Of a DNA stretch of 58,943 nt, positions 46,039 through 58,043 are shown in pieces. Positions within the stretch are counted from its first letter, which is position 1, and each line of letters opens with the position of its first letter. Made by a program: the position numbers and the translations under genes. The notes under the pieces were generated by a model that worked only from the letters and a program-made list of their open reading frames with translations, was not told the DNA's origin and did no database searches. Source of the DNA: Lentisphaera araneosa HTCC2155 (GTDB taxonomy: Bacteria > Verrucomicrobiota > Lentisphaeria > Lentisphaerales > Lentisphaeraceae). The DNA is taken from the NCBI RefSeq assembly GCF_000170755.1, contig NZ_ABCK01000031.1, forward strand, positions 1 through 58,943, in the 5' to 3' direction.

Positions 46039-47358
46039 ATGAATAAAGCATTCAAACTCGACACAGGCAATGATTCTCTTCACAGTATTGGCGGAATATT
46101 TTTAGGAGGTCAAGTTCTTCAACAAAGTGAAATTGACGATGAGTTCAGAACAGATCACAAAGCTAATCATATCTTTCAAGATGTAGATATCTTCAAGTCT
46201 CAGGTTGGGTTGCTGATTCAGGGGCGTGAACGCTTCACAGATATTAGTCAGTTTCGAGAAAACGAAGTTTTTACGAAATCACTTGGATTAAATAAAGTTC
46301 CATCAGAGGAACGTTTGCGTCAACGATTAGAAATCATGTCCTCTGAGCATGAAGTGCGTTTAAAGTCAGCTAATACGAAGCTTATTAAAAAGCAATCGAT
46401 AGGTAGCTTATCAAGAGGCGGAATGGATTTTATTCCACTCGATATGGACGTATCACCCATGGATAACTCCGGAAGTCACAAAGAAAATGTGAGTTGGACG
46501 TATAAAAATCATGATGGTTTTTCTCCTATGTTTGCCTACCTCGGAATTGAGGGTTTTATGCTGAACAATGAACTACGTCCAGGTTCACAACATGCACAAA
46601 AAGGAATGCCTGAGTTCTTAGACGAAAGCTTTACTATGATCAAAAAATTAAAGCTTAAACACCCCGTTCTACTTCGTTTAGACTCCGCTCACGATGCTGA
46701 AGTTAATTTCGATCACCTCCCTGATGACCAATACTTTCTGATTAAACGGAACCTGAGAAAGGAATCCAAAGAACAGTGGTTATCCAACGCACGGCGTTTA
46801 GGGCGACAGCTTAAATCTCGAGATGGTAAGAATGTATTTGTCGGTGAGCTCCATCACAGACAACCTGGAAACAATGAAGAGCGTAAAGTGGTTCCTTTTA
46901 TTTTTAAAGTTACGGAGCAACTCGAGGATCAAGACGGCAATCGACTTTTGATGCCAGAGATCGAAGTGGAAACCTATTGGACCAATTTACCTCTGGAAGC
47001 CGAGGATGTGATCGAACTTTATCACGATCATGGAACCAGTGAACAGTTCCATAGCGAATTAAAGAGCGATATGAATGTAGAGCGTTTGCCATCCGGAAAA
47101 TTCAAAGCGAATCAATTCTTTTTACACTGCGCCATGCTGGCCTTTAATGTTCTCAGAGTCATTGGCAATCACCTTATCCATAATAAATCTTTGGCTCCAA
47201 TAAAAATCAAAGTTCAACGGCGACGCTTACGTTGTGTAATACGTGACTTAATTTTTATCGCTTGTAAACACGTAAAACACGCAGGAGATGAATTCCTTAA
47301 ATTTGGACGACATTGCCCTTGGTTTAAGCTGTATCAAAAAATATCTTTTAGTCTTTAA
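46039..47358 (+). CDS. IS1380-family transposase
   Basis: A 439-residue DDE transposase. The first acidic site is in FIPLDMDVSPMDNSGSHKE, the second is LLRLDSAHDAEVNF, and the C-terminal Glu site is DHGTSEQFHSELKSDMNVER. The end carries the conserved ANQFFLHCAMLAFNVLR element. The overall order and spacing match IS1380-type transposases, and no frameshift or stop interrupts it. It would cut and paste the 45935-47589 element. Translation may be held down by the inverted repeat at 45979-46034. Confidence 0.93.
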   Translation: MNKAFKLDTGNDSLHSIGGIFLGGQVLQQSEIDDEFRTDHKANHIFQDVDIFKSQVGLLIQGRERFTDISQFRENEVFTKSLGLNKVPSEERLRQRLEIMSSEHEVRLKSANTKLIKKQSIGSLSRGGMDFIPLDMDVSPMDNSGSHKENVSWTYKNHDGFSPMFAYLGIEGFMLNNELRPGSQHAQKGMPEFLDESFTMIKKLKLKHPVLLRLDSAHDAEVNFDHLPDDQYFLIKRNLRKESKEQWLSNARRLGRQLKSRDGKNVFVGELHHRQPGNNEERKVVPFIFKVTEQLEDQDGNRLLMPEIEVETYWTNLPLEAEDVIELYHDHGTSEQFHSELKSDMNVERLPSGKFKANQFFLHCAMLAFNVLRVIGNHLIHNKSLAPIKIKVQRRRLRCVIRDLIFIACKHVKHAGDEFLKFGRHCPWFKLYQKISFSL

Positions 47359-52340: not shown

Positions 52341-52363
52341 TCTGCGTATCAAAGGAAATGAAT

Positions 52364-53893
52364 ATGTTTGAACAAAATCCCATACGTGAAAATGATCTGA
52401 TGATGACTCGCCGCAACTTATTTGGCCAGGCCAGTCTTGGTCTTGGCACCATGGCCATGGCCATGGCCATGGCAAACCTTTACGGCGCAGATTCAAGCAA
52501 TCCTCAACTCAGACAAAAAGCTGAACTCAATGGGGGAATCCATCACAAAGCCACCGCCAAGCGAGTTATTTACCTCTTTATGAGTGGCGGCCCCAGCCAT
52601 CACGATACCTGGGACTACAAACCCAAAATGACCGACATGTTTGGCAAAGAACTCCCCGATGAAATCCGCGATGGTCAGCGCGTCACGGGCATGACTGCGG
52701 GCCAAAAGAGTTTCCCTGTTTGCCCCAGTAAATACAAGTTCAAAAAATACGACAACAATGAAAATGGCGTCCACGTCAGTTCGCTCTTGCCCCACACCGC
52801 AAAAGCGGTCAAAGAAATGTGCATCGTCAATAGTACTTTTACCGAGGCAATCAATCACGACCCCGCCATCACCTATATCCAAACTGGTAGTCAAATCCCT
52901 GGTCGCCCTAGCCTTGGCGCCTGGCTGAGCTATGGCCTTGGCAGTGACAACAAAGACCTCCCGGGTTACGTAGTCATGCACGCCAGAAGTCAACACGCGG
53001 AGCAAAGCCTCTTTGGTCGCCTCTGGGGAAGTGGCTTCATGCCTTCTGATCATCAGGGCGTTCTGCTTAGGAGTCAAAAAGATGCCGTGCTCTATCTCAA
53101 TAATCCCAAAGGTGTGAGTCGCGCTAATCGTCGTCAACAACTCGATGCCCTCGCAGCACTTAATCAACAACATCACGACTCCTTTGGTGATCCTGAGATT
53201 CTTGCTCGCATTCGTCAACACGAAATGGCCTACCGCATGCAAACCGCCGTTCCTGAACTCATGGATATTTCTCAGGAACCTGAGCATACCTACAAACTCT
53301 ATGGTGAAGACGCTCGCACCCCGGGTACTTTTGCCGCTTCTTGCCTCAATGCTCGACGTCTAGCGGAACGCGGAGTTCGCAATATTCAGATCTTTCACCG
53401 CGGTTGGGATGCCCACCGCAACCTCCCACATGAGCACGAAAATCAGTGCCGTGATATCGATCAAGCCTGCTATGGGCTTATTATGGACCTCAAGCAACGC
53501 GGCATGTTAGAAGATACCCTTGTTGTTTGGGGTGGTGAATTTGGTCGTACAGCTTATTGCCAAGGGCCGCTCACAAGAGAAAACTATGGTCGCGATCATC
53601 ACCCGCGTTGCTTCACAACTTGGATGGCTGGTGGCGGTATTAAACCTGGTATCACTTATGGTCGCACCGATGATTATGGCTACAATATTACGGATAAAGA
53701 TGGCAACATACTCAAACCGCAACCGAGTAAAGATGACAAATGGGTTCCCGGCACCATGCACATCCACGATCGCAACGCCACTATCTTACACCTCATGGGC
53801 ATTGATCATCGCAAACTCACTTATCGCTATCAAGGTCGCGACTTCCGCCTCACCGACGTCCACGGCCACGTCATCCACGATATTATGGCTTAA
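52364..53893 (+). CDS. DUF1501 family protein with Tat signal
   Basis: About 509 residues. I use ATG 52364 because AAAGGA at 52351-52356 is seven bases from it and too close to the ATG at 52358. A twin-arginine signal (TRRNLF) is followed by a hydrophobic core GQASLGLGTMAMAMAMANLYG. The body has VIYLFMSGGPSHHDTWDYKP, DTLVVWGGEFGRT and the C-terminal MGIDHRKLTYRYQGRDFRLT, all typical of DUF1501, an alkaline-phosphatase-superfamily group. It is the partner of the PSCyt1 protein 23 bases upstream. The final codons and 3' flank recur at 55803-55927 and 57969-58032. Confidence 0.93.
   Translation: MFEQNPIRENDLMMTRRNLFGQASLGLGTMAMAMAMANLYGADSSNPQLRQKAELNGGIHHKATAKRVIYLFMSGGPSHHDTWDYKPKMTDMFGKELPDEIRDGQRVTGMTAGQKSFPVCPSKYKFKKYDNNENGVHVSSLLPHTAKAVKEMCIVNSTFTEAINHDPAITYIQTGSQIPGRPSLGAWLSYGLGSDNKDLPGYVVMHARSQHAEQSLFGRLWGSGFMPSDHQGVLLRSQKDAVLYLNNPKGVSRANRRQQLDALAALNQQHHDSFGDPEILARIRQHEMAYRMQTAVPELMDISQEPEHTYKLYGEDARTPGTFAASCLNARRLAERGVRNIQIFHRGWDAHRNLPHEHENQCRDIDQACYGLIMDLKQRGMLEDTLVVWGGEFGRTAYCQGPLTRENYGRDHHPRCFTTWMAGGGIKPGITYGRTDDYGYNITDKDGNILKPQPSKDDKWVPGTMHIHDRNATILHLMGIDHRKLTYRYQGRDFRLTDVHGHVIHDIMA
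52451..52474 (+). repeat. ATGGCC hexanucleotide tract in the Tat signal
   Basis: Three perfect ATGGCC units and a fourth, ATGGCA, encode alternating Met-Ala in the hydrophobic core of the DUF1501 signal peptide. Unit changes keep frame, so only the signal length would vary. Confidence 0.9.
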
Positions 53894-53952
53894 GCCTATT
53901 CAATAAACGGCGCCCTGGGTACACCAAGCACCAGCTTGGCCTTGTCTCAAAA
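53801..53952 (+). repeat. Tail copy A: native 3' end and flank of the DUF1501 gene
   Basis: The original of a sequence repeated downstream. It covers the last codons (IDHRKL through HDIMA), the stop, and 60 bases of flank including stem CCAAGC/GCTTGG (53924-53939). The hexamer run between CGACG and TCAT has two NCCACG units here, three in copy B and one in copy C. Confidence 0.9.
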
Positions 53953-53994
53953 TAATAATGGTGGAATTATCACTACTTTTTCTAAGTAAATCAG

Positions 53995-54474
53995 TTAGGG
54001 ATTTTCAAAAATCTCTATCAACGCATTGAGTTCACTAAAATTAACTCGCCAGGATTCGAGTTGTTCTTTAGAGATTCGTCTTGCCCATTCATCCTTATCA
54101 ATCTTCTGGGCTTCTCGGCTGAAATAAGTTTCAAAAGTCGATTTAATATTTTGACTTACACTTTGATCGTAAACTATCTTTAACAAAAAAGCCTCTAAAC
54201 AAGGACTTATTCGTAGTGAAGTAATACTCCGTGGAATTGACATAGTTATATCTTTATCATTATCACTTATACAATAAACTTCATCATAGCCTGAACATAT
54301 TTTCTTAGCCCTTCTAATAACTGATTGAGGATCACCACCAGCTTTCTCAACCCTAAATGACCAAGTACTATTCTGATATGTTTGCTTTAAAAAATCCAAA
54401 AAACTCTTATCCGCTTTACCTTCGCAAACAATAAGACATGTAGTTTTCTGCTGACGTCTCCTCCTACCATTCAT
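53995..54474 (-). CDS. RloB-like TOPRIM protein (cassette 1, second gene)
   Basis: A 159-residue protein of the RloB/AbiLii type. The TOPRIM fold is marked by Glu18 in IVCEGKADKSF and Asp71/Asp73 in ISDNDKD. The segment SPCLEAFLLKI (about 90-100) matches the (N/S)PCFExWLL element of RloB. A basic N-terminus (NGRRRRQQK) may bind nucleic acid. It should be a nuclease partner of the ATPase that ends two bases upstream. Such pairs have been linked to phage defence (AbiL) and to restriction loci (RloA/RloB). Activity here is inferred. Confidence 0.82.
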   Translation of the reverse strand: MNGRRRRQQKTTCLIVCEGKADKSFLDFLKQTYQNSTWSFRVEKAGGDPQSVIRRAKKICSGYDEVYCISDNDKDITMSIPRSITSLRISPCLEAFLLKIVYDQSVSQNIKSTFETYFSREAQKIDKDEWARRISKEQLESWRVNFSELNALIEIFENP

Positions 54475-54476
54475 AA

Positions 54477-55664
54477 CTACGCCTCTACAGGTATACCGCC
54501 ATACGCTCCAGCATGATACTTTTCGCGTAAGTTATCGACACGACGCACTCCTTTAATGTCTTTGATAAAGTAAGCATCCGTAACGCAATTCTCGTCTTTT
54601 TCCGTAAGGATAATTTGCTCCTTTTCCAAATAAGACATGATATAATCCGCATGACCCGTAAAAATCAATTGCGCTCCATGAGGGTTACTTTCCTCATCGT
54701 AAAATAACTCTAAGAAATTTTTAAGCATGTGCGAATGGAGATAGGCATCAATTTCATCAATAACTGCAACGCCTCCGTGTTTCAATGTATTGAGTACATC
54801 AAAAATCAATACATAAAGAGACTGAGTGCCATTAGACTCCTGACCAATGAAAAGAGATTGGCGATCTCCGTTGATTTCATGAAAAACGAATGGAATTGTT
54901 TCAACTACAGCTTTGTCACCCTTTATCACTTCTTTGGTTTTAAACTGAATATCTACTAAACCTAGATCGAACGAGGACAGTAATTGCACAGCCTGATCTT
55001 TGATATCTTCATTAAGTTTATATTTTTCGGTAGAACTAAAAATTTTATCTAATAAAGGCGAGGTCAAATTATCGCGCCCCATGCTCGTGACATTACTTAC
55101 TGAATTTAAGAAAGCATTAATAGGAGAATTAAGAGCTGCAATCTCAATATCATTGTGATAGCAAAATGATAATAAAGACACCTTTACTGAAAAAATATCC
55201 GATAATTTAGCAATCTCTTTAATAGGAGATTTAATGGTTTTACCAATTCGGGTAAAGATGGTCGCCTTTTTAAGTCGCGTTTTAAGCGACTCTCTTACAA
55301 TCCCTTCCGACTTTACTTCTAAAGTGTATAAATAGATTTCTCCATAAGCATCAAACTCCAGTTCAAACTTAGACGTCGCATCTTTAGTTTCTTCACAAAA
55401 CTTAAAACCTAACACTGGTATATCCTGATCTTTGTCTAGTAGATAAGAGTCCGTTGTAAAGTACTTCAAAAATGCTAAAGCTTTAACTAAATTTGTTTTC
55501 CCTGATGCATTATGACCAAAAACCGCGACAACCTTTGGGTAACGACCACCGTCACAATTTTCATAAAAGGCCTCCAAGGGGGGTGCATTTTTTGGAATAG
55601 AGAAATTAAGTGCCACCTTGTCGCGAATGCTGTAAAAGTTTTCAACAGTAAATTTTCGTATCAT
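54477..55664 (-). CDS. AAA_15/RloA-like ATPase (cassette 1, first gene)
   Basis: A 395-residue SMC-like ATPase. N-terminus IRKFTVENFYSIRDKVALNF, Walker A GHNASGKT (50-57), a long middle region without coiled-coil, and a Walker B/signature region late in the protein: GQESNGTQSLYVLIFD, then GGVAVIDEIDAYLHSHM near 300 and TGHADYIMSY. This is the RloA/AbiLi-type sensor of defence pairs. It stops two bases before the RloB-like gene. A perfect 11-bp dyad lies 62 bases upstream. Cassette 1 is on the minus strand, opposite to the DUF1501 gene. Confidence 0.85.
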   Translation of the reverse strand: MIRKFTVENFYSIRDKVALNFSIPKNAPPLEAFYENCDGGRYPKVVAVFGHNASGKTNLVKALAFLKYFTTDSYLLDKDQDIPVLGFKFCEETKDATSKFELEFDAYGEIYLYTLEVKSEGIVRESLKTRLKKATIFTRIGKTIKSPIKEIAKLSDIFSVKVSLLSFCYHNDIEIAALNSPINAFLNSVSNVTSMGRDNLTSPLLDKIFSSTEKYKLNEDIKDQAVQLLSSFDLGLVDIQFKTKEVIKGDKAVVETIPFVFHEINGDRQSLFIGQESNGTQSLYVLIFDVLNTLKHGGVAVIDEIDAYLHSHMLKNFLELFYDEESNPHGAQLIFTGHADYIMSYLEKEQIILTEKDENCVTDAYFIKDIKGVRRVDNLREKYHAGAYGGIPVEA

Positions 55665-55725
55665 CGTTAAACCAAAGAATATTTAATAATACATAATAAA
55701 TGTTCCAAAAATCCCATTAATCAAC

Positions 55726-55753
55726 CAACTTTGACAAAATAATGTCAAAGTTG
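55726..55753. promoter_or_regulatory. 11-bp perfect inverted repeat upstream of cassette 1
   Basis: CAACTTTGACA (55726-55736) and TGTCAAAGTTG (55743-55753) with a 6-base centre, in the gap before the ATPase start at 55664. Both arms contain a TTGACA or TGTCAA core. It could be a regulator's operator for the cassette; no local regulator gene is seen. Confidence 0.55.
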
Positions 55754-55802
55754 TTTATTTATGCCATTCTTTATTCCTTTTAGAACCTGGTTAACTTTAC
55801 CC

Positions 55803-55927
55803 ATCAATCACCGCAAACTCACCGACGTCCACGGCCACGGCCACGTCATCCACGATATTATGGCTTAAGCCTATTCAATAAACGGCGTCCTGGGTACACC
55901 AAGCACCAGCTTGGCCTTGTCTCAAAA
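55803..55927 (+). repeat. Tail copy B: duplicated 3' end of DUF1501 and flank
   Basis: Nearly identical to 53801-53952 from the CGACGTCC stretch through the stop codon and on to CTCAAAA, with one base change in the flank. It lacks 33 in-frame bases present in copy A, lost between two CTCAC repeats, and has one extra NCCACG hexamer. There is no gene body before it. The rest of 55665-56020 holds the cassette 1 upstream dyad and a hairpin TTGCCGTA/TACGGCAA (55933-55955) just before cassette 2. Confidence 0.92.
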
Positions 55928-56020
55928 AACCCTTGCCGTAGTTTTTTTACGGCAAACCTTGATAAGCTCTATTTCACCTCTAAGTTCTTAGCAATTATGT
56001 AATAAGGCTAGGACTATCAA

Positions 56021-57157
56021 ATGCTACGAAAGTTTTCAGTAACTAACTTTAAAGGTTTTAAAGATAAATTTACACTTGACTTTACAGACTCTAAAAGCTT
56101 TGAATTTAATCAAGAATGTATAAAAGATGATACCATTTATAAAGCTCTTATATATGGCGTAAATGGATGCGGAAAATCGAATTTAGGTTGTGCTATCATG
56201 GATATCCAATTCCATTTAACTGATTGGAACCTTCATGAAAAACGAGACCTATATAAAAATTATATTAATGCACTATCTAATGAAAAATACGCTAAATTTT
56301 CATACGAATTTTATTTTGCTGGTGACACTCTCATATACGAATATTGGAAAGAGAATGCGGATGAAGTGATTGCGGAAAAAATCATTATTAATAATAAAGA
56401 GCTTATACACATAGATAAGAGAACTGATCAAAATGGTACAGTTCTACTAAAAGGTGCAGAGAGCCTAAAAACAGATATGGCAGGAAAATCGCTATCATTC
56501 GTGAAATTTATTCACAACAACTCTGTATTAGACGATGAAAATCAAGAAAATAAAACTTTTAATCGTTTCATAAATTTTGTCAACTATATGAGAATGATAA
56601 AAACTGTCGATACGCACAAAACAATGAGCTACAAAACATCTTTAGCTTCAAACTATATTCTCGAAGAAGCAGATGGGCTGCAAAAATTCGAAAGTTTTCT
56701 TAACTCATGTAATATAAAATGTTCATTAACAACCATTGATGTAGGTGAAGAAGATCCACATATAGCTTTTAATTTTGATTCAAAAGCTATTAGTTTTTTT
56801 GATGTCGCTTCTACAGGAACATTATCACTTGGCTATTTATATGTCTCATTGTTAATTCTAAAAAGACATATTAAAGAATATGGCGCTACATTCATTTATA
56901 TTGATGAATTTGATGCTTTCTATCATTACCTCTTAGCTAAAAAACTTATTGATTTATTAAAAAATGAAGATGGTGTTCAAGCTGTATTCACAACTCATAA
57001 TACCGACTTAATGAATAATGATTTAATGCGTCCCGATTGTTTATTTAACATGACTGAGAGTGAAATTAATCCTTTCCATAAATTAACTAAAAAAGATTTA
57101 CGAAAAGCTCATAACAATCAAAAGATGTTTAAAGCTGGCATGTTTAATGAGTTATAA
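56021..57157 (+). CDS. AAA_15-type ATPase (cassette 2, first gene)
   Basis: A 378-residue SMC-like ATPase. N-terminus LRKFSVTNFKGFKDKFTLDF, Walker A GVNGCGKS (46-53), signature area ASTGTLSLGYLYVSLLIL and Walker B IYIDEFDAFYH near 290, then an H-loop VFTTHNTDLM. It has the same domain order as the ATPase of cassette 1, but little similarity outside these motifs, so the two are different lineages. Codon use is markedly AT-rich compared with the degradative genes nearby, a sign of transfer. Its stop overlaps the start of the TOPRIM-like gene by 11 bases. Confidence 0.85.
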   Translation: MLRKFSVTNFKGFKDKFTLDFTDSKSFEFNQECIKDDTIYKALIYGVNGCGKSNLGCAIMDIQFHLTDWNLHEKRDLYKNYINALSNEKYAKFSYEFYFAGDTLIYEYWKENADEVIAEKIIINNKELIHIDKRTDQNGTVLLKGAESLKTDMAGKSLSFVKFIHNNSVLDDENQENKTFNRFINFVNYMRMIKTVDTHKTMSYKTSLASNYILEEADGLQKFESFLNSCNIKCSLTTIDVGEEDPHIAFNFDSKAISFFDVASTGTLSLGYLYVSLLILKRHIKEYGATFIYIDEFDAFYHYLLAKKLIDLLKNEDGVQAVFTTHNTDLMNNDLMRPDCLFNMTESEINPFHKLTKKDLRKAHNNQKMFKAGMFNEL

Positions 57158-57859
57158 AATATTATTTGTTTTTGAAGGTTTAAAACTGAACCAAAGATAA
57201 GTAATTGTTTACAAGAGCATTTCTTCACTGATGATAGCTCCAGTATTATTCACAATGTTTTCGGAAGTAACATCTATTCTCTTTACGATGTGATAAAACG
57301 AGATGAACATGCAGATGTTTTTGAGGTATTAAGAGAGCAAAACATACTAACTGATGACCTGAAAAATTTAGATCGTGATGATGTTGGTGAAATATATTTA
57401 TTTTTTGACCATGATGGCCATGACACACGAGCCGACATTCAAAAAATTTCAGAACTACTATCCACGTTTGATAACGAAACCGAAAATGGTCGTCTTTATT
57501 TAAATTACCCTATGGTAGAAGCCATTAAAGAAACTGATCTATTGAAAAATAAAACTTGGAAAATCACAAAGAATAAACAGTACAAAAGCTATGTGAGTGA
57601 ATTAGATCATTATAATGACTTGATGCGTCTATCGAAAGATGACTGGAACAAAGTGTGTGTAAGGCATCTAAAAAAAGCTAATTGGATCGTCAATAATGAT
57701 TACGCTCTTAGCACTAAAAACTCAATTGAACAAAACACCATATTTGAGGGGCAAGTGGCTAATTTCATTCAACCATCAAATTCTGTCTCAATTCTAAGTG
57801 CATTCCCTTTATTTGTTGATGACTACTTCCAGGAAAATGAATTAGAATATAGACAGTAA
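57147..57859 (+). CDS. TOPRIM-like protein, split by a -1 frameshift (cassette 2, second gene)
   Basis: ATG 57147 overlaps the ATPase stop and opens MSYKILFVFEGLK, the first TOPRIM strand with its Glu. The frame then ends at TAA 57198. A -1 shift at TTTAAAA (57179-57185, read as T TTA AAA) continues with TEPKISNCL and stays open to 57859. The joined protein of about 237 residues has the second TOPRIM acid pair in IYLFFDHDGHD and a Glu in YPMVEAIKE. Without the shift only a GTG at 57290 could start the rest and the catalytic Glu is lost. Choices are programmed frameshifting, a recent one-base deletion (A5 to A4) or a sequencing error. Confidence 0.7.
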
Positions 57860-57968
57860 GCTGCAAGTTCTTTAAGGCCCCCTACATTTAGAAGGATACT
57901 GCACTGGCTTATTCAGGCGATCTCAAAGAATTGCCGATTTCATTGACACACAATGGAACAAGACGATC

Positions 57969-58032
57969 GATCACCGCAAACTCACTTCCAATGCGTTGGA
58001 AGTGAGCTCCCCCCTGCCGACGGCCACGTCAT
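57969..58032 (+). repeat. Tail copy C: fragment of the DUF1501 3' end with palindrome insert
   Basis: GATCACCGCAAACTCACTT (57969-57987) matches copy A, then an 11-bp perfect palindrome CTCACTTCCAA (57981-57991) and TTGGAAGTGAG (57996-58006) plus GCTCCCCCCTG interrupts, and CGACGGCCACGTCAT (58018-58032) resumes the tail. The stop codon and flank of copies A and B are missing. No gene lies in 57860-58043. Confidence 0.75.
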
Positions 58033-58043
58033 AAAAAATATAT

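Follow-up and report, generated by a model that had tools for sequence, protein, structure and literature searches.

Introduction

A large number of small defence systems are mobile although no mobile element can be seen with them. For restriction–modification genes of Helicobacter pylori and other bacteria, insertion with long target duplication has been described (Nobusato et al. 2000; Furuta et al. 2010, as cited in PMC1643837, PMC3031569, PMC3874152, PMC3154945, PMC4978471). In the present study, we analysed a stretch of 58,943 nucleotides of Lentisphaera araneosa HTCC2155 (the window; contig NZ_ABCK01000031.1, hereafter C31, of a draft genome of 6,023,180 bases in 81 contigs), in which two predicted defence modules, AbiL and PDC-M12, lie behind the 3′ end of a DUF1501 gene and are each followed by an orphan copy of that gene end. 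As in the cases outlined in those papers, the locus combines a small defence unit, a direct repeat of the order of 100 bp taken from the host target and the lack of a known mobile element; unlike them, it carries AbiL and PDC-M12 instead of restriction–modification genes, has two units stacked on one gene end and belongs to other phyla. The locus is thus best read as known in kind, namely as insertion with long target duplication repeated into a stack. An earlier interpretation made from the window's letters (the sequence-only reading) had suggested that the mechanism might be new; given the published restriction–modification cases, a likely new mechanism is not supported.

In Escherichia coli, 56 of 60 clones gave a polymerase chain reaction product of a partial gene-end duplication, and the 14 sequenced duplications measured 109–950 bp; the authors (PMC3240628) ascribed them to single crossovers involving a circle in which the gene end was shortened. 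Such single-crossover gene-end duplication and homology-facilitated illegitimate recombination share with the scenario proposed below one homologous anchor and one non-homologous join. Their classic products carry a deletion, whereas none was seen in the window, where the event is inferred from one genome. In the effector–immunity displacement arrays of the Vibrio cholerae type VI secretion system (PMC5361080), and in the Rhs orphan ends named in the same paper, successive additions behind a conserved anchor displace older pieces along the array and leave 3′ remnants, as in the window; the displaced part there is the effector or its end, whereas here the anchor gene is intact and bears no relation to the cargo. 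The locus also differs from an integrative element at a gene 3′ end, since no recombinase ORF was found between or beside the tail copies and no common attachment sequence at the other AbiL loci. A narrow literature search returned no AbiL or PDC-M12 module inserted with long target duplication, and the term PDC-M12 did not appear in the literature searched.

Results

The intact DUF1501 gene (52358..53893, plus strand; 511 amino acids; PF07394, E 4.7e-149) anchors the locus. Its last codons, stop codon and 3′ flank, together with a palindrome resembling repetitive extragenic palindromic (REP) sequences, form tail copy 1 (53801..53952, plus strand), and this tail recurs on the same strand as orphan copy 2, with the REP-like palindrome (55803..55927), and as orphan copy 3, which is decayed and interrupted by a hairpin (57966..58041; hairpin at 57981–58006). 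A repeat search of the window aligned 53856–53952 with 55831–55927 over 97 nt at 98% identity and located a 22-nt upstream part of the repeat at 53801, 55803 and 57966; a further alignment around the AbiL pair covered 110 nt at 93.6%. Compared to copy 1, copy 2 has one hexamer more and 33 bases fewer; the missing bases lie, as read from the sequence, between two CTCAC words, past which 20 more nt match less well. Copy 3 consists of two short blocks of 20 and about 14 nt. In a comparison with 500 dinucleotide shuffles, the flanks of the AbiL interval matched with a score of 188 against a shuffle maximum of 29 (0/500), and those of the PDC-M12 interval matched far more weakly, with 35 against 27 (0/500). 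The twofold recurrence of the tail and the small indels between copies, both described in the sequence-only reading, were thus confirmed.

The left-edge 20-mer ATCRATCACCGCAAACTCAC matched the L. araneosa genome only at the three tails at ≤2 mismatches, and at 6 places, 3 of them the tails, at ≤3 mismatches. The part of the repeat represented by CTGGGTACACCAAGCACCAGCTTGG is a REP-like palindromic dispersed repeat (53905..53952, plus strand; CCAAGC-ACCA-GCTTGG hairpin in the DNA fold) with more copies elsewhere in the genome, and the locus-specific part of the tail is therefore the remainder only. A relative of this palindrome also stands behind the DUF1501 gene of another Lentisphaera species (G001). 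DNA folding was rejected as a feature of the tails, as copies 1 and 2 showed no excess over shuffles (z −0.69 and −1.08); the z of −4.25 for copy 3 is owing to its hairpin. The hairpin was also rejected as a dispersed repeat, its core having no second match in the genome at ≤2 mismatches, and a search with the flank 57868–58043 at E 0.01 through the 6 genomes of the order returned no other match than that of the hairpin to itself.

About 20 further DUF1501-like ends in the genome raise the question of whether the orphan tails remain from duplicate DUF1501 genes in which cassettes took the place of the gene body. However, besides the gene itself and copy 2, 18 of the 20 matches lie in open frames of at least 427 amino acids elsewhere, copy 2 bears the 3′ flank of the window's own DUF1501 gene, and the stretches examined in G001 and in a third species, G002, contain one DUF1501 gene each. 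This explanation, highly improbable in our judgement, was rejected because no additional gene bodies were seen at the locus. Recombination between duplicated DUF1501 loci, the second mechanism offered in the sequence-only reading, found no support, no second DUF1501 body being seen at the locus in L. araneosa, G001 or G002.

Each interval between tails contains one two-gene cassette, on opposite strands, as had been supposed. Between copies 1 and 2, the minus strand encodes an AbiLii/RloB-like TOPRIM protein (53995..54474; PF13707 RloB, E 3e-8; PADLOC AbiLii, 2.5e-8) and an AbiLi ATPase (54477..55664; PADLOC AbiLi, 9.9e-71; AAA_21/AAA_15). With the AbiLi ATPase beside its AbiLii partner on one strand, the pair is a predicted abortive-infection system. 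Between copies 2 and 3, the plus strand carries the PDC-M12A ATPase gene (56021..57157; PADLOC PDC-M12A, 2e-127) and, adjacent to it, PDC-M12B (57147..57859; PADLOC PDC-M12B, 2.2e-68 from profile position 49), which is frameshifted near its start in the draft contig, leaving 57290–57859 open, so that the two genes are not both intact. Pfam gave no family for PDC-M12B, whose motifs point to a putative TOPRIM protein; in G001 it is a single open frame of 237 amino acids, and the frameshift at 57147–57300 may mean that the system is decaying or may be a sequencing artefact close to the contig end. Relatives of PDC-M12A are found in plasmids (18 records), phages (4 records) and viral contigs (14 loci), which indicates that the PDC-M12 module travels. 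No recombinase open reading frame (ORF) lay between or beside the tail copies, the sequence-only reading having noted the lack of an integrase between them; the nearest recombinase among the 16 window ORFs scanned was a DDE transposase at 46039–47358. On the right, the locus is bordered by a PhoD-like phosphatase gene that is open at the contig end (58044..58943, minus strand; PF09423, E 2.2e-21).

A 23-nt hairpin, TTGCCGTAGTTTTTTTACGGCAA (55933..55955, plus strand), heads the PDC-M12 module. The same letters precede a second, diverged PDC-M12 pair of L. araneosa on contig C12 (68% amino acid identity), and the G001 version differs at the first base only. The element, unchanged before the C12 module despite an ATPase only 68% identical, is possibly regulatory. 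Just before the C12 pair (L121, 117109–118242) ends a frame that resembles, by eye and with no Pfam match, the last residues of a tyrosine recombinase.

G001 and G002, two other species of the genus, were compared with L. araneosa using one genome per species. Their DUF1501 genes share 78% and 80% DNA identity, respectively, with that of the window, and in 18-kb stretches both sites have a single tail and no cassette, in agreement with the earlier proposal that a conserved gene took in cassettes at its 3′ end, of which truncated copies remain. The block in the window is bounded by a long direct repeat, and the repeat is host sequence that is single in these relatives, which are other species. 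The search for single-tail sites suggested in the sequence-only reading was thus borne out as to the single tail and missing cassette, but not as to a strict empty site, because the genes downstream of DUF1501 are different in all three species.

The G001 PDC-M12 module lies at another locus and shows 91% DNA identity over 1987 bp, equivalent to window 55908–57892 only, with 96% amino acid identity for PDC-M12A, and has neither tail 2 nor tail 3. Since this copy is free of tails and the relatives have a single tail at DUF1501, the tails are a property of the site and not of the cassettes. The tail as part of a mobile cassette was rejected on the same copy. The match between G001 and the window begins within the right arm of the REP-like repeat, and this REP border may be a preferred join, a suggestion based on ~30 letters.

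G001 also has an AbiL pair (45% amino acid identity to the window pair), on both sides of which stand 37 bp from the 5′ end of the next gene as a direct repeat (score 57, highest shuffle 32; 0/500). At the corresponding locus in L. araneosa and G002, the next gene is present once, without AbiL and with other genes. The gap from the sigma-factor-like to the DUF1456-like gene (L146, L122, L147; gene names by eye) holds different genes in the three Lentisphaera species, with AbiL in G001 only, and is thus itself a variable site.

AbiL was further surveyed at 79 loci from named genomes, drawn from the best 80 of at least 121 relatives. When the flanks were widened and repeats had to reach at least 35 bp and 80% identity, flanking direct repeats were found at 6 of the 79 loci and at 15 of 1234 control placements (p 0.001), the control matches being uninspected and 6 loci having short flanks. 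L225 was dropped because its repeats lie inside repeat proteins, which left 5/79 (p 0.005). Clear gene-end duplications were observed in an Akkermansiaceae genome (L171), where the first 100 bp of a gene stand on each side of AbiL at 93% identity and the locus adjoins a type III restriction gene, and in Streptosporangium canum (L212), where the end of an 870-amino-acid gene stands on each side of AbiL (142 bp, 90%). Weaker cases are L184 (repeat of 298 bp), L224 (72 bp, upstream region) and L169, from a Verrucomicrobia metagenome-assembled genome whose contig has 1.1-fold coverage according to its title. At L169 (100–3500), three gene-end copies separate AbiL and a small second module, much like in the window. 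L170 has a gene-tail copy ahead of AbiL and not around it.

The repeats at AbiL insertions differ in length and sequence (37, 100, about 110 and 142 bp) and come from different genes, so that no common attachment sequence emerges. This bears on site-specific integration, in which a recombinase acting in trans would use the DUF1501 tail as attachment site and the cassettes would be small non-autonomous elements. The position of the cassettes at a gene 3′ end, the common left edge of copies 2 and 3 and the start of the PDC-M12 module at the end of the REP-like sequence in both the window and G001 are in keeping with it, whereas the variation of the duplicated ends at other AbiL loci, the tail-free PDC-M12 copy of G001 and the lack of a recombinase ORF between or beside the copies make it very unlikely.

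Gene-end copies were not confined to AbiL and PDC-M12. Direct repeats made of a gene end and its orphan copy at a distance of 0.5–8 kb were counted in 40 stretches of 20 kb from L. araneosa, picked by position and not at random, and in 20 stretches each from G001 and G002. Orphan gene ends occurred in 4/40 L. araneosa stretches (L261, L263, L316 and L325), compared to 0/20 in G001 and 0/20 in G002. Before filtering, the L. araneosa list comprised 43 rows in 6 stretches; L309 and L313 were left out by eye as low-complexity repeat arrays, as was a second L261 row that is a dispersed intergenic repeat, and L269 (86 bp, 100%) is missing from the count, its repeat lying within a small gene. Since prepilin-like genes similar to one another stand on either side of L325, this case may be a local duplication. 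The cargo at the four loci includes prepilin-like, sensor kinase and cytochrome-type genes and no known defence gene. The hotspot proposed in the sequence-only reading was therefore rejected as one specific to defence genes, since modules without a known defence gene in the same genome show the same gene-end copies. At L263, the sulfatase gene has a single tail in G001; the L. araneosa cargo is found elsewhere in the genomes of both G001 and G002, and it has no second full copy within L. araneosa.

The names sulfatase, esterase, extracytoplasmic function sigma factor, DUF1456, guaA and acyltransferase were assigned by eye in these stretches. At L316 (C4, 8597–18283), a DUF1552/DUF1592 pair lies between the orphan 3′ end of one neighbour and the orphan 5′ end of the other, and a sulfatase-like gene separates the true 5′ end from the orphan tail. 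At L261 (C1, 9791–11412), an IS110-family transposase gene lies just past the orphan tail and the dispersed repeat.

Gene ends are also duplicated without cargo: the end of the G002 sulfatase gene that corresponds to L263 recurs about 300 bp apart (88% over 244 positions), and at L272 (C5, 8586–8877) the 3′ end of a gene stands twice in tandem, with 146 bp copied exactly. Such cases lend some credit to the idea that the DUF1501 tail was tandem-duplicated first, by slippage or unequal exchange, and that the cassettes entered between the copies later. In the window, however, the cassettes sit between the copies with no leftover tandem piece alongside. A rough synonymous-site test, which excluded the G001 AbiL locus, L169 and L212, also spoke against this order: nine orphan–intact pairs pooled, mostly from other loci, had 70.5/169 synonymous differences (0.417, against 0.325 expected from in-place copying of one gene end with later decay; p 0.009, and p 0.019 and 0.002 when two alternative constraints were assumed), with a pooled pN/pS of 0.37. 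The synonymous excess favours the joining of orphan and intact ends that may represent two alleles diverged while functional. Prior tandem duplication is thus an unlikely, though not a far-fetched, origin of the array.

Discussion

Considering these results, we regard it as probable that two defence modules were added in turn at the DUF1501 3′ end by insertion with long target duplication, and we propose the following scenario. Incoming DNA would carry a module beside an allele of the DUF1501 tail and would recombine by homology, presumably through RecA, with the resident tail on one side only. The other side would re-enter the chromosome slightly upstream of the exit, through end joining or, if a circle bore the gene end, through one crossover, so that the donor may have been linear or circular. 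One homologous anchor and one non-homologous upstream re-entry would thus yield a whole DUF1501 gene, the cargo and a truncated tail beyond it, with nothing deleted. The first event may have left copy 3 behind PDC-M12 and the second copy 2 behind AbiL; two such rounds would make copy 3 the oldest, fitting its decay.

Several results weigh against this scenario. Copies 2 and 3 begin at the identical nucleotide though the DNA to their left differs, and random re-entry does not predict such a shared left edge. The edge could be due to chance, a preferred break or an exchange between tails, and no other point argues as strongly for a site-specific step. It would also be accounted for if, after one founding insertion, a circle of tail and cassette was excised and re-integrated by plain homologous recombination between tails, provided that the circle carried the edge; however, because the DNA left of the two copies differs, the common edge would then need two matching junctions, and we consider this origin of the second unit quite improbable. 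The comparison at DUF1501 is one between species, and the PDC-M12 modules of G001 and C12 have no flanking direct repeat within 400-bp flanks; the same holds for two more distant AbiL-like loci of G002. With 300-bp flanks, direct repeats at score 44 occurred at 1/76 testable AbiL loci and 1/674 control placements, and at score 30 at 4/76 and 26/674, respectively, with no clear enrichment. In the wider survey, all 15 control matches came from 4 loci (L162, L169, L170 and L225), and the control placements are therefore not independent. The excess of orphan gene ends in L. araneosa over its relatives (4/40 against 0/40) is weak (p 0.058), and the cargo-free duplications of G002 and L272 fit a duplication-first order equally well. 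In the synonymous-site test, some pairs were poorly aligned and sites were treated as independent, the alignment of window copy 3 was forced through its hairpin, and the coding difference between copies 1 and 2 is too small to tell whether they are separate alleles.

Sequential insertion with long target duplication nevertheless remains our preferred explanation for the DUF1501 locus. A broader generalization, which we put forward as a long shot, would be that AbiL-type ATPase–TOPRIM modules are themselves mobile and, across phyla, enter gene ends by insertion with long target duplication, the target being opened by the module's TOPRIM nuclease; repeated insertion at one gene end would then build, with no integrase, a defence array recombinable by RecA.

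The locus and the AbiL survey extend insertion with long target duplication to ATPase–TOPRIM systems, in Lentisphaera, an Akkermansiaceae genome and a Streptosporangium. They also provide a simple signature, an orphan gene end past a cassette, which makes it possible to spot such insertions and to map their edges. Furthermore, re-entry upstream of the exit leaves both neighbours of an insertion unharmed, which offers a neutral reason for the stacking of defence modules at one gene end.

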